From Candidatus Bathyarchaeota archaeon (GTDB lineage Archaea > Thermoproteota > Bathyarchaeia > Bathyarchaeales > DTEX01), in the NCBI GenBank assembly GCA_018396655.1, contig JAGTQF010000010.1:1-38869 (forward strand): 38,869 nucleotides of DNA, in the 5' to 3' direction. Shown here piece after piece: positions 10,292-22,512 of the stretch. Numbering within the stretch: position 1 is the first letter of the stretch; the number at the start of each line of letters is the position of its first letter. Below the pieces are notes generated by a model. It saw nothing but the letters and a program-made list of their open reading frames with translations, was not told the origin of the DNA and searched no databases. A program made the position numbers and the translations under genes.

Positions 10292-10600
10292 ATGTCACAT
10301 GGAAGAAAGCGTAAGAAGAGCTTTATGGATGAAATTTTCAGCGGCTCTATTATTGATGAATTTGAGAGACTGTTTAGCGAGTTTTCCAGCGGTGAGGTTG
10401 CTGGTGGATACTCCATAAGTGTTGTTCAGACGCCAGAGGGAACAGTAGTTAGGGCTAGGGTTGGGAAAGATGTGGACGTAAACGAGCTGAGGAGGAGGCT
10501 TGAGCGGCAGTATCCGGGTGCAAGGATTGAGATTGAGGGTGGAAGACGGGAACCGCTTATAAGGGAGATATCAACAAGGGAGATTGAGGAGAAGGGCTAG
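10292..10600 (+). CDS. conserved hypothetical protein
   Basis: 102 aa ATG ORF; coherent acidic/basic composition with VVQTPEGTVVRARVGKDVDVNELRRRLERQYPGA; no overlapping alternative. Confidence 0.65.
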   Translation: MSHGRKRKKSFMDEIFSGSIIDEFERLFSEFSSGEVAGGYSISVVQTPEGTVVRARVGKDVDVNELRRRLERQYPGARIEIEGGRREPLIREISTREIEEKG

Positions 10601-10621: not shown

Positions 10622-11209
10622 TTATGCTTTAGCTTCGGTTTTTAGAAGCAGGTCTATTAGTTTTTTTTGGTCTACTTCAGCTCTTGTTCTCCACCCAAGG
10701 TATATTTGCCTATTCTCATCTTCAACCAAGTATCCTAGCCTTATGAATTTGTTTAGGTCTATGTCTACGCGCCACTCCGGTATCTTACTCCTCAATAGTT
10801 CTTCTAGCTCTTTTCTCTCAACCTTTCCTCCCTTGGATGTTATGTATGCTATTGATGTGCATAGTGCCGCTAGGTCGTCTATGCGCCAGCCAACCATCTT
10901 GGCTTCTTCAGCTCTTAAATTCTCTTTTAATGTTATATAGAATCTTGCTTTATCATATTGCTCAAGCGTCGGGTTTTCCGGCGGATTGGCTTCTTCCTCA
11001 AAGACTATTTTAACCGTTAATCCTATCCTGTCAAGATATTCATTTAGGAGGTTTATGACTTTTGGGTAGTCTGAGCCAACCTTCCTTCGTAACTCCCAGC
11101 CTTTTGCTCCAGGAATCGAGTGCCTTTTATAGAAGAGAAGCTGCGCTGCCTTTCTCATCTTCGCTATGTAATAGGCTTTTCTCCCAGTGCTTTTCGATTC
11201 TTTCTCCAT
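10622..11209 (-). CDS. tandem winged-helix KITE protein, Nse3/MAGE-like (putative SMC complex subunit)
   Basis: Two winged-helix-like segments (RKAAQLLFYKRHSIPGAKGWELRRKV.. and DLAALCTSIAYITSKGGKVERKELEELL..) ending in LVEDENRQIYLGWRTRAEVD, similar to the MAGE/Nse3 Y-x-W-G-x-R-A element. GTG start at 11218 or, better, ATG 11209 with GAGGAG SD. Confidence 0.6.
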   Translation of the reverse strand: MEKESKSTGRKAYYIAKMRKAAQLLFYKRHSIPGAKGWELRRKVGSDYPKVINLLNEYLDRIGLTVKIVFEEEANPPENPTLEQYDKARFYITLKENLRAEEAKMVGWRIDDLAALCTSIAYITSKGGKVERKELEELLRSKIPEWRVDIDLNKFIRLGYLVEDENRQIYLGWRTRAEVDQKKLIDLLLKTEAKA

Positions 11210-12033
11210 TTCATCCACTCCTCGAAGCTTATTGGTATTGGGAATGATATAAGTTCGGCATCTTCCTTAGGTGAGGGCTTTTCATTGGGCAATATAAATA
11301 TCTCATCTTCTAGGATGTGCACCTCTAGTCTTGCATATCCATACGTTATTAGGAAACTCGTTAGGTAGGCCCTTCTCACGGTCTCTTCGTATGTCTCTGA
11401 ACCTATAAAGTCCCAGTATTTGATTCGCCCATACTTAGAGGCTGCTCCCTTAAGCTCCAGCCACATCTTCTCTAGCTCGGAGGCGAAGGATTCGCCCGAC
11501 AATATTCCTTCCTTAATCACTTCCTCTTTAGCGATTCTCTGGGCTTCAGTCTTTATATAGCCTATTCTCTGCCATCTCTCGCTTATTGGCGGTAGCTCGC
11601 TCCAGTATTTTAATGCTTCACGAAAACCCTCGATGGTCAATTGCTCAAACTCCACAATTGGACGCCATGTCTCAAGGAATATTTCAGCCATCTTCTCTCT
11701 TGGTAAGCTGCGAATTTTCTCCTCTATTAAAAATGGGTCTCTATAAAGCGCTGTTGCCCTACTCTTAACCCATTCACCCTGCATCTTAACGACTGACGCT
11801 ATGTGGTTTAGGGCTTCGGTATCTAGGCATAAGTCTTCAATACTCTCCCGCATTGGGAAAAATTCCCTAACAGCCCTAATCAGGTCTTCAACATCAACAA
11901 GATATGGGTCTAAACCCTTAATCTCAACAGACCTGCATAATTCAATTATTTTCAGGAGTTCTTCCCTAGCCTCCTTAACGCTCTTCCGCCTTTCATTCCC
12001 TCCCAATAATCTCTCCCCACCCATGTTAATCAA
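11164..12033 (-). CDS. uncharacterised protein, candidate kleisin subunit of the adjacent SMC-like ATPase
   Basis: 289 aa; lies between SMC and KITE genes with overlaps on both sides; N-terminal LLKIIELCRSVEIKGLDPYLVDVEDLIRAVREFF and C-terminal AELISFPIPISFEEWMKW are compatible with kleisin N/C domains. Confidence 0.5.
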   Translation of the reverse strand: MINMGGERLLGGNERRKSVKEAREELLKIIELCRSVEIKGLDPYLVDVEDLIRAVREFFPMRESIEDLCLDTEALNHIASVVKMQGEWVKSRATALYRDPFLIEEKIRSLPREKMAEIFLETWRPIVEFEQLTIEGFREALKYWSELPPISERWQRIGYIKTEAQRIAKEEVIKEGILSGESFASELEKMWLELKGAASKYGRIKYWDFIGSETYEETVRRAYLTSFLITYGYARLEVHILEDEIFILPNEKPSPKEDAELISFPIPISFEEWMKWRKNRKALGEKPIT

Positions 12034-14075
12034 ACAACTTCTCGAATTAATGATTTCCCATCAACATTTTGAACCGTTATTACGTGGACATCTTTGCCCT
12101 CAAAGAACATTTGGTTGGGCGTTATCGCAATATATTGTACACCCTCATTTTTAACGGCTGATATAAGCATGTTTGCTATAACCTCCCTATTCCTTGGGTC
12201 CATGTGGACATCATACTCATCTACGGCTCTGAAGGGTGATTTTATATGCTTTTGGAGAGCCAGTAGGAAAGCCATAGTCGCCGTGCTTCTCTCCCCTCCA
12301 CTCTGGGAATAAATGTTTAGTGGGACGGGTTGTGAACCCTTAAACCCAACATAAATCTCCAATCCAGCAGCCTCAATATCATTCTCATTAATTAGTCGCA
12401 CAAATCCCGAGCCGGCGACATGTGAGAGTATATTCTGATACTCTGTGTTCACGCTTTCCAATAGATTTTTGATGACGCCCCTCCATTCCTCCATCCTAAC
12501 TCTAATCTCTCTTAAGGTTTTCTCGCGGTTTTCAGCCGCAATCCGAGCCCTCTCCTTAAGCTCAAGGTACAGCTTTGAATAGGATTCATACATCTTCTCA
12601 ACATCCTCCGAAATATCCGCCATAGCCATTAAGCGCCCATCTATAATTCGGATTTCATCCAATATCTCCTCCGGACTCCTTAGAGTAGCTACTCTCGACC
12701 CCTTCTCCTCAGCCCTCTTAACAGCCTCCCCCAAACTTGAGAGAGAAGCGCTTAGATTCTTCTCTAGGATTTCAATCTCGCTCAGTAACTCGCTCCTTTG
12801 ATAGGAGAGAAGAGCCAATTTAACTTTATCCTCAATGAGGACATTTATTAAATCATTAAGTCTCCTCTCAACTTTGAACATCTCATCCTTCACGTCCAAA
12901 AGGCTAGTCTCTATATTCGCGAGTTTAATGCTTGAAATTTCGGCTAAATCCTCAACCTCGCCAATTCTAGACTTTAAGGTGTCAAAGAGTCTACTTAGGT
13001 TTTCAATGGCGTTCGCCGTCTCCAGCCACCTTGATTTAGCCCCCTCACTTATAATGTTTGGCTCGATTTCGCCCTTATCTATTGTGACAGCGAATCTTAG
13101 AATATCTCTTATATTTCTCTCGCCCTCATTAAGCAGCCCCTTTAAACTATCCATTATTTCATGGTATCTGGAGAACTCAACGTTATATTTCGCCCTCTCC
13201 CTCTCAAGCGATATCCTTTCTTCAAGGAGACTGCGCCATTCATCTCTGAGACTGGATATCTCCGCCTCAATTGACTTTAGTGAGGACTCACGCTCCCTAA
13301 TTGAGGACTCGATACTCTCCAGCTCAGTCTTTTTCACATTGACCTCCCGCCTAATCCTATTGGCCTCATCTTCTCTTCTAGATACCTCAGCCCAAGCTAA
13401 CTCACGCTCTAAGAAGCGCCTTTTTAAGGTGAGCTGCTTCTTCTCCTGATAGCGCTCATATTGCTCACGCCAGTAGCTGAGCGTCTGCTCAGCGGATTCA
13501 AGCATCTTATTGAGTGATTCTTCCTGGCTTATTAACCGGCTAAGCTTATTCTGCGCCTCAAGGACATTCTTACGGTAAGATTCAAGCCCAACGGCAGATT
13601 CAACGAGCCTAAGCTTCTCCTGAGGAGACAGTAGAATAAACTGCTCAGCCATATCCTGATGCATTATTATAAGCATATTATCTGGGTCAACATTGAAGCG
13701 TGACAGAAGCCTTAGCACATCGGCTTTGCTAGCGGCAGCGCCATCAATCTCAAACCAATATTTACCATCCCGCCTCAAAACCCTAGTTAAATAAATCTGG
13801 TCCTTATTGATTTTATGAATTGGACGCCTACCACCAACCCTAGAATTGTTCAGAACTATTGTTACTCGCCCAATATCCTTACCCCACCTTATTAGGTCGC
13901 TAAGCCTCTTAGAGCGCTCAGTATAAGATTGACCTAAAGCAACAGATATACCCAAAAGAATCGATGATTTACCAGAACCATTTGGGCCGCAAATCACATT
14001 AACACCTGGCCTAAGCGGTATCCTAGCGTATTCATAAGACATGAAGTTCTCGAGGATAATCTCTGATATCAACAT
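12030..14075 (-). CDS. compact SMC-family ATPase, Smc5/Smc6-like
   Basis: Walker A GPNGSGKSSIL; FNVDPDNMLIIMHQDMAEQFILLSPQEK; long heptad coiled coil; signature SQSGGERSTATMAFLLALQ; Walker B PFRAVDEYDVHMDPRNR; QYIAITPNQ. Confidence 0.85.
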   Translation of the reverse strand: MLISEIILENFMSYEYARIPLRPGVNVICGPNGSGKSSILLGISVALGQSYTERSKRLSDLIRWGKDIGRVTIVLNNSRVGGRRPIHKINKDQIYLTRVLRRDGKYWFEIDGAAASKADVLRLLSRFNVDPDNMLIIMHQDMAEQFILLSPQEKLRLVESAVGLESYRKNVLEAQNKLSRLISQEESLNKMLESAEQTLSYWREQYERYQEKKQLTLKRRFLERELAWAEVSRREDEANRIRREVNVKKTELESIESSIRERESSLKSIEAEISSLRDEWRSLLEERISLERERAKYNVEFSRYHEIMDSLKGLLNEGERNIRDILRFAVTIDKGEIEPNIISEGAKSRWLETANAIENLSRLFDTLKSRIGEVEDLAEISSIKLANIETSLLDVKDEMFKVERRLNDLINVLIEDKVKLALLSYQRSELLSEIEILEKNLSASLSSLGEAVKRAEEKGSRVATLRSPEEILDEIRIIDGRLMAMADISEDVEKMYESYSKLYLELKERARIAAENREKTLREIRVRMEEWRGVIKNLLESVNTEYQNILSHVAGSGFVRLINENDIEAAGLEIYVGFKGSQPVPLNIYSQSGGERSTATMAFLLALQKHIKSPFRAVDEYDVHMDPRNREVIANMLISAVKNEGVQYIAITPNQMFFEGKDVHVITVQNVDGKSLIREVV

Positions 14076-17266: not shown

Positions 17267-17689
17267 TCACTTAACTCTCATGATAGTGCTAGCTGATAAT
17301 ACTGTATTTTCTGGGTAGAATGGGTAGAAGGCGGGAGTCATTACTAAAGAACATTTCACTTGGTATTCTCCAGACTTCAACCCTCCGGGTTTTTCAATGA
17401 AAACGCGAATTATCTCACCATATCCCCACCATAACTCGGGGATTGTGGAGACATTCTTAAGAGATATTCTATTTCTTCTTAGAATAAAGGTGATTTTTTC
17501 TGGGTCGATTCTCTCCCCATTCACAATGAGAGAGAAGCCTTTTATTGATGAGAGGGGTTGCGCTGTATAGAGTGGATTACCTAGTTCAAATTGAAATCCA
17601 TCTATTTGACCATCACCATTTAAATCAACGTTTTCTATTTCTCTAGTTGGAAGTAAGAGGAGAGCCGCTACCCGTTGAACGTCCCTCAT
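17267..17689 (-). CDS. DUF6379 / C-glycoside deglycosidase beta-subunit-like protein
   Basis: QFELGNPLYTAQPLSSIKGFSLIVNGERIDPEKITFILRRNR..WWGYGEIIRVFIEKPGGLKSGEYQVKCSLVMTPAFYPF matches the remembered pattern of this family. Confidence 0.6.
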   Translation of the reverse strand: MRDVQRVAALLLLPTREIENVDLNGDGQIDGFQFELGNPLYTAQPLSSIKGFSLIVNGERIDPEKITFILRRNRISLKNVSTIPELWWGYGEIIRVFIEKPGGLKSGEYQVKCSLVMTPAFYPFYPENTVLSASTIMRVK

Positions 17690-18248: not shown

Positions 18249-19469
18249 GTGCTAACTCAGTTGAGTGAGTTCAGCTTTGTCCATATCGCTGATGTTCACT
18301 TGGGCTATGAGCAGTATAATCTCAGCGAGAGGCGAGATGATTTTGATAGAGCCTTTATGGAGGCTGTCGATAAAATTATGGCGCTGAAGCCAAACTTCGT
18401 GATTATAGCCGGAGACCTATTTCACCATGCCAGACCCTTAAACATAACCCTAGAGAGGGCTATAAGGAATTTTAGGAGGCTGAAAGAGGCGAATATACCG
18501 GTTCTGGTTGTTGATGGCTCGCATGATGCTGCTCCAAATACCTTAACAAGCACAATACTTAATCCCCTTGACAGCGCCGGGCTAATATATTATCTGCCGA
18601 GACATGAGAATGCATGCTGGGAGAATGAGTATTGCTACGTGTATGGAATCCCAAACTTTAGAACTAGAGAGAGAACTGAGAAGCAACTGCCAGCTTTTTA
18701 TGAACTGAAGAAACCTACACCCCGCAAGGATAAATTTAACATATTTGTCTTCCACATGGCCCTAGACATGCCGGAAATAACAAAATTTTATCCTAGAATA
18801 GCTGCTGAAGCTTCACCAGCCCTAATACCGGAAGGCTTCAATTATTATGCTGGTGGACACATACACTTACCACTACAAATCCAATTTAGGAATGGAGTAT
18901 TAGCCTACAGCGGCTCAACCGAAACCGTGAGCTATGAGGATGCCTATGCTGAGAAAGGCTTCTATTACGTTGAAGTTGACAAGAGATTTGAGGTTAAGGT
19001 AAGCCGCATAAACATTGAGGGCACGAGGAAATTTAAGGTTGTTGAAAGGGATTGCAGTGGTCTATCCCCTCATGAGATAACGGAGCTGGCTGAAAAAATC
19101 GTTAGAGAAGCTGACGAAGAGGGTGCCGTCATAGTTCCGGTCCTAAAGGGTATGCTGCCAGCTGGCTCAACTAGGGGGGAGATTGATTTGGCAAGAATTA
19201 GAGGAGCGGCTGAGAAGGCTCTAGCAGTGCACCCAGTTCTTCTTCTTAGGGAGGAGGAGATCCCCGAGGAGATTATAAAGAGCATATTTGAGGGTGAGAT
19301 AAAAGATTTGAGGGTTAAATCATACGAGTATTTTCTCCAATTCTTTATGCAACGCTATAGCCGTGAGGAGGCTGAGAAAAGGGCTAGAGTGGCCTTAGAC
19401 TTAATGCAATACCTGGTGAGGGGGGATGAGGATAAAGTTAGGGAGGTTCTGGAGGGTTTGATTAAATGA
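18249..19469 (+). CDS. mre11: Mre11-like DNA repair exonuclease
   Basis: FVHIADVHLGYEQY, VIIAGDLFHHARP, DGSHDA and YYAGGHIHLP phosphodiesterase motifs; start/stop overlap with rad50. Confidence 0.93.
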   Translation: MLTQLSEFSFVHIADVHLGYEQYNLSERRDDFDRAFMEAVDKIMALKPNFVIIAGDLFHHARPLNITLERAIRNFRRLKEANIPVLVVDGSHDAAPNTLTSTILNPLDSAGLIYYLPRHENACWENEYCYVYGIPNFRTRERTEKQLPAFYELKKPTPRKDKFNIFVFHMALDMPEITKFYPRIAAEASPALIPEGFNYYAGGHIHLPLQIQFRNGVLAYSGSTETVSYEDAYAEKGFYYVEVDKRFEVKVSRINIEGTRKFKVVERDCSGLSPHEITELAEKIVREADEEGAVIVPVLKGMLPAGSTRGEIDLARIRGAAEKALAVHPVLLLREEEIPEEIIKSIFEGEIKDLRVKSYEYFLQFFMQRYSREEAEKRARVALDLMQYLVRGDEDKVREVLEGLIK

Positions 19470-21550
19470 AGATAGATAGCATATTCATTGAGAACATGAG
19501 GTCTCACGTTAAAACTTACATAAAATTCTCGAAGGGATTCAACTGTCTAGTGGGCGGGTTAGGCGCCGGAAAATCTAGCATACTATATGCAATAGACTTC
19601 GCATTATTTGGGGAACCCCTAAGCAGAAGTTACGACTACCTATTACGTGAGGGGACGGATATTGGCAGAGTTGCACTGAAATTTATAGAAAACGGGAAAG
19701 AATACACCATTTGGAGGGGGCTTAGGAGGCGCGGTGAAAGAATAAGCCAAGACCCTGAGCAACTCAAGCTCTTCGAGGGGAGCAAGCTTTTAGCCGAGAT
19801 GAAAAGCGATGCGGTGTCAGAGCAGCTGAAGTCGATAATTGGGGTGGATAGGGAGATATTCCGCGATATAATCTGGGTTAGGCAGGAGAAGCTTAAGGAG
19901 ATATTGGATATTATGCCAGCAGAAAGACAGAGGAGACTAGACCAGCTATTCGGAATATCAGACTATGATATCTCATGGGCAAACTTAAGACCAGTCCAGA
20001 GATGGTATGAGGGTGAAAGAGAGACGCTAGAGCGGGACCCAGACGTCATTGGCGTAAAGGATATGCAGAGCAAATATGACGAGGCTGTCAAGGAACTCTC
20101 AATAAGGGAGGCTGAGCTTGAAGAGGCACATCGAAGCCTATACGAGGCTGAGTTAAAGCTTAAGGAGGCTTCCTCAAGGCTTGAGGGGCTTATGGAGATG
20201 CGCCGAAAAAGTGAGGAGATGAGGAATGAGGAAGCCGATTTAAAGTCCAAGATTGGAAGTCTTGAGAGCATATGTGCCAGGCTGATGAACGAGATTAGAG
20301 AGAGAAGAGCGAAGATAAACGATTTAGAAACGCGCCTAGAAGCTTTAAACGCTCAGGAGAAGAATGTTAGGCGGAGGCTTGCCGATTTAGGTTTGTCAGA
20401 GAATATGTCCCTAGAAGACCTTCAATCTTATATCGACAGTATTATTGTGCAAATCTCAAGCATACGTGGTGAGGAAGAGAACGTTAGGGGAGAAATTAGA
20501 AGGGCAACGCAGAGAATATCTAATTTAGTTAAAGAGAGCAGGTGCCCACTGTGTCTCCAAAACCTCTTGTCCGAATATAAAGATAAGCTAATGAAGCAAC
20601 TCAATGAGGAAATCTCCAGCTATAGGCAGCAGCTAAGCGAGCTAGAGAGGAGCGCTAAGGAGCTAGAGCATCTAAGAAGCATCCTCTTCGCAGCCCTCAC
20701 CAGCCTACAATCAATCCTTCCAAAACGGGAGGAGCTAACTAGACAGCTCAGGGATGAGGAACAGCAGCTCAAAAGAGCGGTGGAGGAATTGAATGCAAAA
20801 AAAGAGGAGATTGAAATATTAAAGAGTCGCCTAACCGACTTAAAATCCAAGATTGCTGAATTCGATTATTCAAAACTTGAGGAGGCTCAGAGGCTATATA
20901 GTGAGACTTTAGAGAGATACTCGAACCTAAAGTATAAGGTTCAGAATTTAGAGAGCCAAAAGAATGAGATTATAAGTAGGCTTGAGGGACTAAAAATCCG
21001 GTTAGATATAGCCCAAAAGAAGATTGAGCGCTTAGAGAAAATTAGGGAGATACTGGTGTTCATTGAGGAGACTAGACAGGCGTATAAGAGTATACAGCCA
21101 AAGATAAGAGGAGATTTTGTAAAGTATCTTGAGAGAATCGTCCAGCAGATAATGGATGAGCTCATTGGCTCGGAGGGGGAGCTCTTCACCATCAAGATTG
21201 ACGAGAATTATACGCCAATAATTGAGGGTGAGGATGGGCGAGAGAGAAGTGCATCTAATCTCTCTGGAGGCGAGAGGACTTTTCTCGCACTCGCATATAG
21301 GTTGGGCATTGGCCAGCTTATAATGCATCTGAAGTCTGGACGCGGATTAAGCATATTGCTCCTAGATGAGCCGACGGAGAGCCTGGGTAGAGAGGATGGT
21401 TCAATAGATAGGTTAGCGGAGATGTTATCACGCCTAAAAACAATCGAGCAGATAATAGCGGTAACGCACAGCGAAGCCTTCGCCGAAAAAGCTGACCAAG
21501 TAATAAGGGTTGAGAAAAGAGATGGAAAGAGCGTAGTCTTAACGGAGTAA
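19466..21550 (+). CDS. rad50: Rad50 DNA repair ATPase
   Basis: Walker A GGLGAGKSSIL; zinc-hook ESRCPLCLQNL; signature NLSGGERTFLALAYRL; ILLLDEPTESL. Confidence 0.95.
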   Translation: MKIDSIFIENMRSHVKTYIKFSKGFNCLVGGLGAGKSSILYAIDFALFGEPLSRSYDYLLREGTDIGRVALKFIENGKEYTIWRGLRRRGERISQDPEQLKLFEGSKLLAEMKSDAVSEQLKSIIGVDREIFRDIIWVRQEKLKEILDIMPAERQRRLDQLFGISDYDISWANLRPVQRWYEGERETLERDPDVIGVKDMQSKYDEAVKELSIREAELEEAHRSLYEAELKLKEASSRLEGLMEMRRKSEEMRNEEADLKSKIGSLESICARLMNEIRERRAKINDLETRLEALNAQEKNVRRRLADLGLSENMSLEDLQSYIDSIIVQISSIRGEEENVRGEIRRATQRISNLVKESRCPLCLQNLLSEYKDKLMKQLNEEISSYRQQLSELERSAKELEHLRSILFAALTSLQSILPKREELTRQLRDEEQQLKRAVEELNAKKEEIEILKSRLTDLKSKIAEFDYSKLEEAQRLYSETLERYSNLKYKVQNLESQKNEIISRLEGLKIRLDIAQKKIERLEKIREILVFIEETRQAYKSIQPKIRGDFVKYLERIVQQIMDELIGSEGELFTIKIDENYTPIIEGEDGRERSASNLSGGERTFLALAYRLGIGQLIMHLKSGRGLSILLLDEPTESLGREDGSIDRLAEMLSRLKTIEQIIAVTHSEAFAEKADQVIRVEKRDGKSVVLTE

Positions 21551-21552
21551 AT

Positions 21553-22512
21553 ATGCCTTTAATTCCGCATTATATTTTAGGCCTCATTGGATGGAGGATG
21601 ATGAGAATGATTAAGGTTGGTTGTTGCGGCTACCCAGTTTCACAGGCCAAATACTACGAAACCTTTAAGCTGGTTGAGTTAAACAGTACATTTTATAGGT
21701 ATCCAAGCCCCAGAACTGCTGAGAACTGGCGGAAGAGAGCTCCAGAGGATTTTGAATTCACCGTGAAAGCCCATCAAGATATAAGCCACAAATATAAGTT
21801 GAAGATTGAGAGAGCGGCGGAGCCTTTTGAGAAAGTTAAACAGATATGTCGCATATTAAAGGCGAAGATTATACTTATCCAGACGCCAGCGTCCTTTAGC
21901 ATAAAAAATCTTGAGGATGCAAAAAAGTTCTTTAGCGGAATTAACCGCGAAGATTTCATTCTTGTTTGGGAAACGCGGGGACCCTCATGGGAGAGCGATG
22001 AGGGGCTTAGAAGCCTTAAGGGGATTCTAAGCGAACTGGATGTAACGCATGTAACCGACCCATTAAGGCTCATGCCAACCTATACATCTAGACTAGTATA
22101 TTTCCGTCTTCACGGATTAGGTGAGCGCATGTACTACTACCAGTATACAAATGACGAACTAAGAAGGATTTATGAAATCGTCAGAGGGTTTGAGGGGCTG
22201 GAGATGGGCGCCTACGTCCTCTTTAACAATCTATCCATGTTTGAGGATGCAAGACGCTTCGCCTTCTTTATGAAAAATGGATACTTTCCGCCATTAACCG
22301 GAGAATTCGGCATAGAATCTGTTCAGCGCATTCTTAATGCGGTCCGCTATCCAACGACGAAAAACGCGTTAATCGATAGGGTTGGCTGGAGACTTATCGA
22401 GTTTGAGGATGGAAGGCAGGTTAGGCTCAGTAAATTAATGGCTAATATATCGGCAAAAACCTATAAGAACCCCGAGGAAATCATGAGCGAGCTAAAAGCA
22501 AGCCTTGCTTAA
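21553..22512 (+). CDS. DUF72 domain-containing protein
   Basis: IKVGCCGYPVS..YYETFKLVELNSTFYRYPSPRTAENWRKRAPEDFEFTVKAHQDISH; true start may be an internal ATG. Confidence 0.92.
   Translation: MPLIPHYILGLIGWRMMRMIKVGCCGYPVSQAKYYETFKLVELNSTFYRYPSPRTAENWRKRAPEDFEFTVKAHQDISHKYKLKIERAAEPFEKVKQICRILKAKIILIQTPASFSIKNLEDAKKFFSGINREDFILVWETRGPSWESDEGLRSLKGILSELDVTHVTDPLRLMPTYTSRLVYFRLHGLGERMYYYQYTNDELRRIYEIVRGFEGLEMGAYVLFNNLSMFEDARRFAFFMKNGYFPPLTGEFGIESVQRILNAVRYPTTKNALIDRVGWRLIEFEDGRQVRLSKLMANISAKTYKNPEEIMSELKASLA

Follow-up and report, generated by a model that had tools for sequence, protein, structure and literature searches.

We have analyzed a gene for a 195-residue protein that lies in a 38,869-nucleotide stretch of the genome of Candidatus Bathyarchaeota archaeon; this whole stretch is referred to here as the window. 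The question raised by the gene is whether archaea possess a relative of the MAGE/Nse3 proteins, the KITE subunits of the Smc5/6 complex, as was proposed in the original prediction from the sequence alone. Smc5/6 is the least understood of the eukaryotic SMC complexes. The adjoining genes for an SMC ATPase and a kleisin went unmentioned in that prediction. With these genes taken into account, the KITE is very probably a subunit of a complete, minimal SMC complex of the Smc5/6 type that members of the Thermoproteota encode in one operon. The likeness of the three proteins, SMC, kleisin and KITE, to Smc5/6, Nse4 and Nse3/Nse1, respectively, is seen both in sequence and in fold.

Organization of the locus

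The interval 10622-11209, correctly delimited in the original prediction, is a real gene and is located on the minus strand. Its frame begins with an ATG at 11209 (an alternative GTG start is present at 11218) and ends with a TAA at 10624-10622; the plus strand across the same interval is rich in stop codons. The gene closes a run of three overlapping minus-strand genes, in the order SMC ATPase, kleisin and KITE (Table 1). The SMC gene runs with its stop codon 4 nt into the kleisin frame, which starts with TTG and has an in-frame ATG at 12024; the kleisin and KITE genes overlap by 46 nt.

Table 1. Coordinates of the SMC, kleisin and KITE genes of the window and of their domains and motifs
Feature	Coordinates	Strand	Description
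KITE gene	10622..11209	minus	195 aa; two winged helices in tandem; resembles MAGE/Nse3 and Nse1; one cysteine
KITE, second winged helix	10697..10882	minus	residues 110-171; part aligned by the MAGE model; GYL..DE...LGWR.RAEVD motif
KITE, first winged helix	10928..11164	minus	residues ~16-94; carries the most conserved motif of the family, PG[VA]KGWELR...G..Y
Kleisin gene, Nse4-like	11164..12033	minus	289 aa; helical domain at the N-terminus, its third helix long; winged helix at the C-terminus
Kleisin, C-terminal winged helix	11185..11421	minus	residues 205-283; matches Pfam Nse4_C
SMC ATPase gene, Smc5/6-type	12030..14075	minus	681 aa; short arms; no recognisable hinge
SMC, Walker B PFRAVDE	12216..12236	minus	residues 614-620; PFRVVDE in yeast Smc5
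SMC, ABC signature SQSGGER	12288..12308	minus	residues 590-596; QSGGER shared with yeast Smc5
SMC, Walker A GPNGSGKS	13965..13988	minus	residues 30-37

This organization is well conserved among relatives. The order SMC-kleisin-KITE on one strand is found at 74 of the 80 named Bathyarchaeota loci, and the overlap of kleisin and KITE genes is present at nearly all 80, with 34 nt as the commonest length. Most of 40 loci from across the phylum have the same arrangement; at a few of them the SMC gene is elsewhere or has been lost at the end of a contig. The neighbouring genes in relatives are of housekeeping type (rpoA, rpoB, a NusA-like gene, genes for ribosomal proteins), plus a helicase, and no defence island was seen among them.

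Several other features of the surroundings can be recorded here. Within the window, a 102-aa gene without a family match (10292-10600, plus strand) is convergent with the KITE gene, the two being 21 bases apart. On the other side, genes for Mre11 (406 aa), a short zinc-hook Rad50 (694 aa) and a DUF72 protein form an apparent operon at 18249-22512 on the plus strand; the Mre11-Rad50 genes are thus separated from the Smc5/6-like operon by about 4 kb and lie on the opposite strand. A C-glycoside deglycosidase beta subunit (PF19906, 4e-18) is encoded at 17267-17689 on the minus strand. In relatives, a conserved gene of about 229 codons with no Pfam match, divergent from the SMC gene, lies upstream of the operon at 40 of 120 loci (for example L124:2281-3093, some 3 kb upstream from the start of the KITE gene). 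Some Bathyarchaeota carry the kleisin-KITE pair without an adjacent SMC gene (loci L112, L141, L145 and L147), and some metagenome-assembled genomes have two kleisin-KITE loci (L115/L126, L113/L145 and L150/L170), possibly as paralogous second sets. In family f22 the operon appears to be split: kleisin and KITE (L065) share a contig, and an SMC-like frame of 599 aa (G073:C17:32121-33746) is found on a different one.

Distribution of the KITE and kleisin genes

Orthologues of the KITE are present in 50 of the 61 genomes of the same order, mostly at 48-80% identity and near full length. Across the phylum a KITE profile matched in 159 of 400 genomes, and the 80 top matches in the named GTDB collection were all archaeal, Bathyarchaeia MAGs being among them. 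Both KITE and kleisin were found in 157 of the 400 genomes, and only one member of the pair in 10 (KITE in 2 and kleisin in 8, of which six had weak E-values of 1e-3 to 1e-5). The hypergeometric log10 P of this co-occurrence is about -98 for the 400 genomes, a value uncorrected for their shared ancestry. In the genome to which the window belongs, one SMC of the Smc5/6-type class and one such KITE were found.

The SMC ATPase

Complete orthologues of the SMC ATPase range between 567 and 691 aa. The ATPase motifs (GPNG.GKS, QSGGER and PFRAVDE) are invariant or nearly so among them; the invariant residues are K36 of Walker A, Q140, the GGER of the signature and D619-E620 of Walker B. Against the PDB, the window SMC matched Smc5 best (1.6e-33), followed by canonical archaeal Smc and Smc6. 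With a profile of 36 orthologues Smc5 (6e-69) and Smc6 (1e-66) came first, then canonical archaeal Smc (1e-52), Smc2 (7e-44) and Smc3 (2e-39). In a tree of head domains rooted with Rad50, in which yeast Smc5 is the one eukaryotic sequence, it groups as the sister of the 36 archaeal proteins with a UFBoot of 100. The archaeal group itself has a UFBoot of 89, and 11 canonical archaeal SMCs fall apart from Smc5 and these 36 proteins. On these comparisons the head domains are nearest to those of Smc5 and Smc6.

No SMC_hinge domain was found by Pfam in the window SMC or among the families listed for the 36 orthologues. In the shortest orthologues only about 180 residues, mostly coiled-coil-like, lie between the equivalents of residues 200 and 500 and join the arms, so that a canonical hinge would hardly fit. 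The CXXC zinc hook is likewise absent from the SMC. Identification of the protein as coalescin/Sph or as Rad50 was considered and rejected on the basis of its higher scores with SMC and Smc5/6 models, the missing zinc hook, and its kleisin and KITE partners.

The kleisin

The predicted structure of the kleisin has the architecture expected of this superfamily: a helical N-terminal domain (helices at residues 19-39, 48-61 and 65-96) that includes a long helix of the kind that meets the SMC neck, and a C-terminal winged helix. The sole Pfam match of the window kleisin is Nse4_C (PF08743), with a score of 16 bits where the cut-off is 26; this is nonetheless the best Nse4_C match in its own genome. 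Of 46 orthologues, 35 match Nse4_C (best 5.6e-9), and the next family matches 2. When 250 genomes were scanned with the Nse4_C model, matches above the curated cut-off were obtained in 10 genomes and always fell on the kleisin of an SMC-kleisin-KITE locus. A kleisin profile gave human EID3/NSMCE4B (4.9e-6) and yeast Nse4 (5.2e-6) as its leading PDB matches, and next the C-domains of ScpA (0.03-0.04) and a ScpA N-domain (0.054). The Foldseek ranking agrees: Nse4 is on top (2.2e-5 and 2.6e-4, yeast Nse4 first), followed by the C-terminal winged helices of ScpA and Scc1.

The KITE and its relationship to MAGE/Nse3 and Nse1

The two winged-helix-like units perceived in the letters of the gene are borne out by AlphaFold2, which, with 45 orthologues, folds the KITE as tandem winged helices (mean pLDDT 88, pTM 0.76). 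Two features that characterize the KITE superfamily are present: tandem winged helices, in the AlphaFold2 model and in the Foldseek matches, and linkage to SMC and kleisin genes, in the operon. A RING is absent, judging from both sequence and model, since the protein has 195 residues with one cysteine and only helices beyond the second winged helix.

Each of 45 KITE orthologues was compared with 24,736 Pfam families. MAGE (PF01454) was the most-matched family (14 of 45 orthologues, best E-value 2.7e-4) and SMC_Nse1 (PF07574) the second (9 of 45, best 6.5e-4). Every other family matched at most 3 orthologues, and ScpB matched at most 1. This ranking, with MAGE and Nse1 in the lead and regulators at 3 of 45 or fewer, is the opposite of one in which unrelated winged-helix regulators come out on top and the MAGE and KITE families are non-significant. 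The orthologues' second winged helix aligns to positions 118-206 of PF01454. The window KITE itself has no MAGE match in Pfam, falling below the curated cut-off of PF01454; as a single query it gave nothing usable in Pfam, NCBIfam or the PDB, and KITE profiles of 16 or 45 sequences gave no matches in the PDB. When 250 genomes were scanned in all six frames for the MAGE model, at least 11 of the 12 best matches fell on the KITE gene, the twelfth coming from a genome (G284) with no listed KITE position for comparison. One KITE orthologue among the 250 genomes (in G098) exceeds the curated MAGE cut-off, and the model had no matches in 14 control genomes.

Comparison of the KITE model with 350,542 PDB chains by Foldseek placed MAGE-G1, Nse3, Nse1, Nse1 and MAGE-A4 first. 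These are the five PDB matches with E values of 0.001 or less: 5hvq_D (MAGE-G1) and 7dg2_C (Nse3), whose identities were confirmed, 5hvq_C and 7dg2_A, which the entry titles and chain lengths indicate to be Nse1 chains, and MAGE-A4. Lower-ranked matches include Smc5/6 chains, ScpB and MukE. Since the TM-scores are modest (0.38-0.58) and a viral cullin was matched at 7.5e-5 in a different library of viral models, where matches are mostly cullin and winged-helix noise and serve as a yardstick for chance, the fold match is not decisive by itself.

The MAGE-like motifs noted originally at the end of the second unit and in its helix-turn were both recovered when the KITE profile was aligned with a MAGE/Nse3 profile. 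The alignment is colinear over residues 18-195, placing ALCTSIAYITSKGGKVERKELEELL opposite a 26-letter MAGE/Nse3 stretch and GYLVEDENRQIYLGWRTRAEVD opposite one of 27 letters, with a weak score. The archaeal YL.EDE...LYLGWR.RAEVD, conserved across the KITE family, aligns opposite the C-terminal MAGE motif YL.Y...Y.F.WGPR..E, again weakly. For the MAGE side hhalign was given five vertebrate sequences (human and frog Nse3 and MAGE-A/B), and the result, an E-value of 0.009 at a probability of 4.5%, is weak when taken alone; the ScpB of the same genome scored 0.0019, so that MAGE and ScpB are not separated. The case for MAGE/Nse1 likeness is carried by the comparisons made for the whole family and by the gene context, and the link of the window KITE to MAGE/Nse1 comes from its orthologues and its fold. 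Whether Nse3 or Nse1 is the nearer relative cannot be told. The idea of a prokaryotic relative of the MAGE fold is largely upheld: the Pfam matches of the orthologues, Foldseek and the operon context favour it, with the qualifications that the window protein falls short of the MAGE cut-off and that Nse3 is not separable from Nse1. We therefore use the label MAGE/Nse1-like KITE and not MAGE member, given that the protein misses this cut-off and has no Nse1 RING.

A canonical Smc-ScpA-ScpB operon in the same genome

The same genome contains a canonical overlapping operon on another contig (C12, 30500-36200), with an SMC of 1,189 aa, ScpA and ScpB; the system in the window is therefore a second, distinct SMC-kleisin-KITE set. 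When 41 genomes of the phylum were probed with a canonical SMC, eight, belonging to families f20 (G063, G072, G080, G088 and G095) and f24 (G067, G090 and G097), had only weak matches, to short Smc5/6-like genes or Rad50-like frames. These eight genomes are 89-98% complete, and the Smc5/6-like set may be the sole SMC complex in them.

Alternative explanations

The three genes might form a genuine SMC-kleisin-KITE complex that is a divergent offshoot of Smc-ScpAB or a relative of MksBEF, its Smc5/6 likeness being of the general kind that kleisins and KITEs share. The matches of the kleisin profile to ScpA domains, those of the KITE model to ScpB and MukE, and the failure of hhalign to tell MAGE from ScpB are all consistent with such an origin. 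We nevertheless consider it unlikely: when the three proteins were tested one by one, an Smc5/6 subunit came out on top each time, the tree unites the SMC with yeast Smc5 at full UFBoot support (100), ScpB matched no more than 1 of 45 KITE orthologues, and the true Smc-ScpA-ScpB operon elsewhere in the genome is plainly different. That the operon is instead an anti-plasmid or anti-phage defence system resembling Wadjet or Lamassu is very unlikely. PADLOC models do match the SMC ATPase, although only generically, and in humans Smc5/6 takes part in antiviral immunity (PMC10586767), but no Jet or Mks model of PADLOC matches the kleisin or the KITE and no nuclease gene is conserved as part of the operon. 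The operon is also mostly single-copy, order-wide and set among housekeeping genes, and is neither patchy nor island-borne.

An ordinary winged-helix transcription factor, co-transcribed by chance with a repair operon, would share the fold of the 195-aa protein and could account for its weak matches to the regulators PaaX, TrmB and IclR. This explanation is highly improbable in view of the lead of MAGE and Nse1 over all regulator families among the 45 orthologues, the conservation of the kleisin overlap across the order and the co-occurrence of the pair across the phylum; the full-length tandem matches of the protein, moreover, are KITEs. Hardly credible, finally, is acquisition of the operon by gene transfer from a eukaryote to archaea, which would explain why the proteins specifically resemble eukaryotic subunits. 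In the tree, whose single eukaryotic sequence makes it only a partial test of nesting, the archaeal SMCs form one clade (UFBoot 89) with yeast Smc5 as its sister. The genes span dozens of archaeal families with deep divergence, and they are much shorter, single-copy and devoid of a recognisable hinge.

Proposed mechanism and ancestry

The Smc5/6-type reading thus remains preferred, and the complex is probably a simplified, homodimeric, DNA-clamping member of this type. Nse4 bridges the heads of Smc5/6, and Nse1-Nse3 shape the Nse4 linker (PMC7297730); Smc5/6 subunits are described in one account as clamping DNA (PMC9191643). By analogy, we infer the following assembly, stoichiometry, DNA clamping and cellular role for the archaeal proteins. 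Binding of ATP would engage the heads of two identical SMC subunits. A single kleisin would link the two in an asymmetric way: its helical domain would contact the neck of the first subunit, and its terminal winged helix the head of the second. The KITE would sit on the kleisin linker, probably as a dimer, and help to keep DNA on the engaged heads, as Nse1-Nse3 does in yeast. ATP binding and hydrolysis would then clamp DNA and move or compact it. The complex could serve in chromosome organisation, repair or both, beside the canonical Smc-ScpAB and, in some lineages, in its place.

There is about an even chance that the operon is the living counterpart of the ancestor of eukaryotic Smc5/6, with one SMC, one Nse4 and one KITE as before duplication, dimerisation without a canonical hinge, and a role as the sole SMC-kleisin complex of some lineages. 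The archaeal complex would then have preserved the state that preceded the duplications giving rise to Smc5/Smc6 and Nse1/Nse3, and its KITE would give the MAGE fold family a first homologue among prokaryotes. With a three-gene version in archaea, the origins of Smc5/6 and of MAGE could be tested directly, and it would emerge whether an SMC-kleisin motor can do without a canonical hinge. The complex is small and probably heat-stable, and would suit structural and single-molecule work.

Comparison with known systems

Archaea are described as having "SMC5/6-related" SMCs within the Smc5/6 clade in two articles (PMC9389158 and PMC10003631, citing Yoshinaga & Inagaki 2021). The SMC of the window, set beside this class by description, is very likely the same, being archaeal and of the Smc5/6 clade. 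PMC9389158 makes no mention of kleisins; PMC10003631 names only ScpA/MukF as prokaryotic kleisins and states that the origins of the partner proteins are little known beyond the Kite link. In the open literature, which leaves most subscription papers and bioRxiv preprints outside the search, we found no description of an archaeal Nse4-like kleisin or Nse3/Nse1-like KITE, and no paper combining "Nse4" and "Asgard". For Nse4 and Nse1/Nse3, the literature searched reports no relatives among prokaryotes apart from a general likeness to ScpA/ScpB. Thus the class of SMC5/6-related archaeal SMCs is already published, and for the Nse4-like kleisin and Nse3/Nse1-like KITE partners no report was found in this literature. 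They would add a KITE-bearing SMC complex to the archaea, where canonical Smc-ScpA has been argued to operate without a functional KITE (PMC7055376).

Among the SMC-superfamily ATPases that lack the canonical long-arm hinge architecture, coalescin/Sph (ASRP), Rad50 and arcadin-4 differ from the window SMC, which scores higher with SMC and Smc5/6 models, has no zinc hook and is accompanied by kleisin and KITE genes. MukBEF, MksBEF and Wadjet (JetABCD) are KITE-based SMC complexes too, and MukE is among the fold matches of the KITE, but the window kleisin and KITE match no Muk, Mks or Jet model and have no conserved nuclease neighbour. Smc-ScpA-ScpB shares the general architecture and the overlapping operon of SMC, kleisin and KITE and occurs in the same genome; it occupies a separate locus with a far longer SMC (1,189 aa), and Nse4 is a better match than ScpA for the window kleisin, as MAGE/Nse1 is than ScpB for the KITE. 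The eukaryotic Smc5/6 complex (Smc5, Smc6, Nse4, Nse1 and Nse3/MAGE) provides the best matches of all three archaeal proteins and shares the motifs QSGGER and PFR.VDE. Unlike it, the archaeal set has a single SMC and a single KITE where the eukaryotic complex has two of each, lacks a RING on its KITE, and is encoded in one operon with an SMC of 570-690 aa, short-armed and without a recognisable hinge, as compared with about 1,100 aa in eukaryotes.
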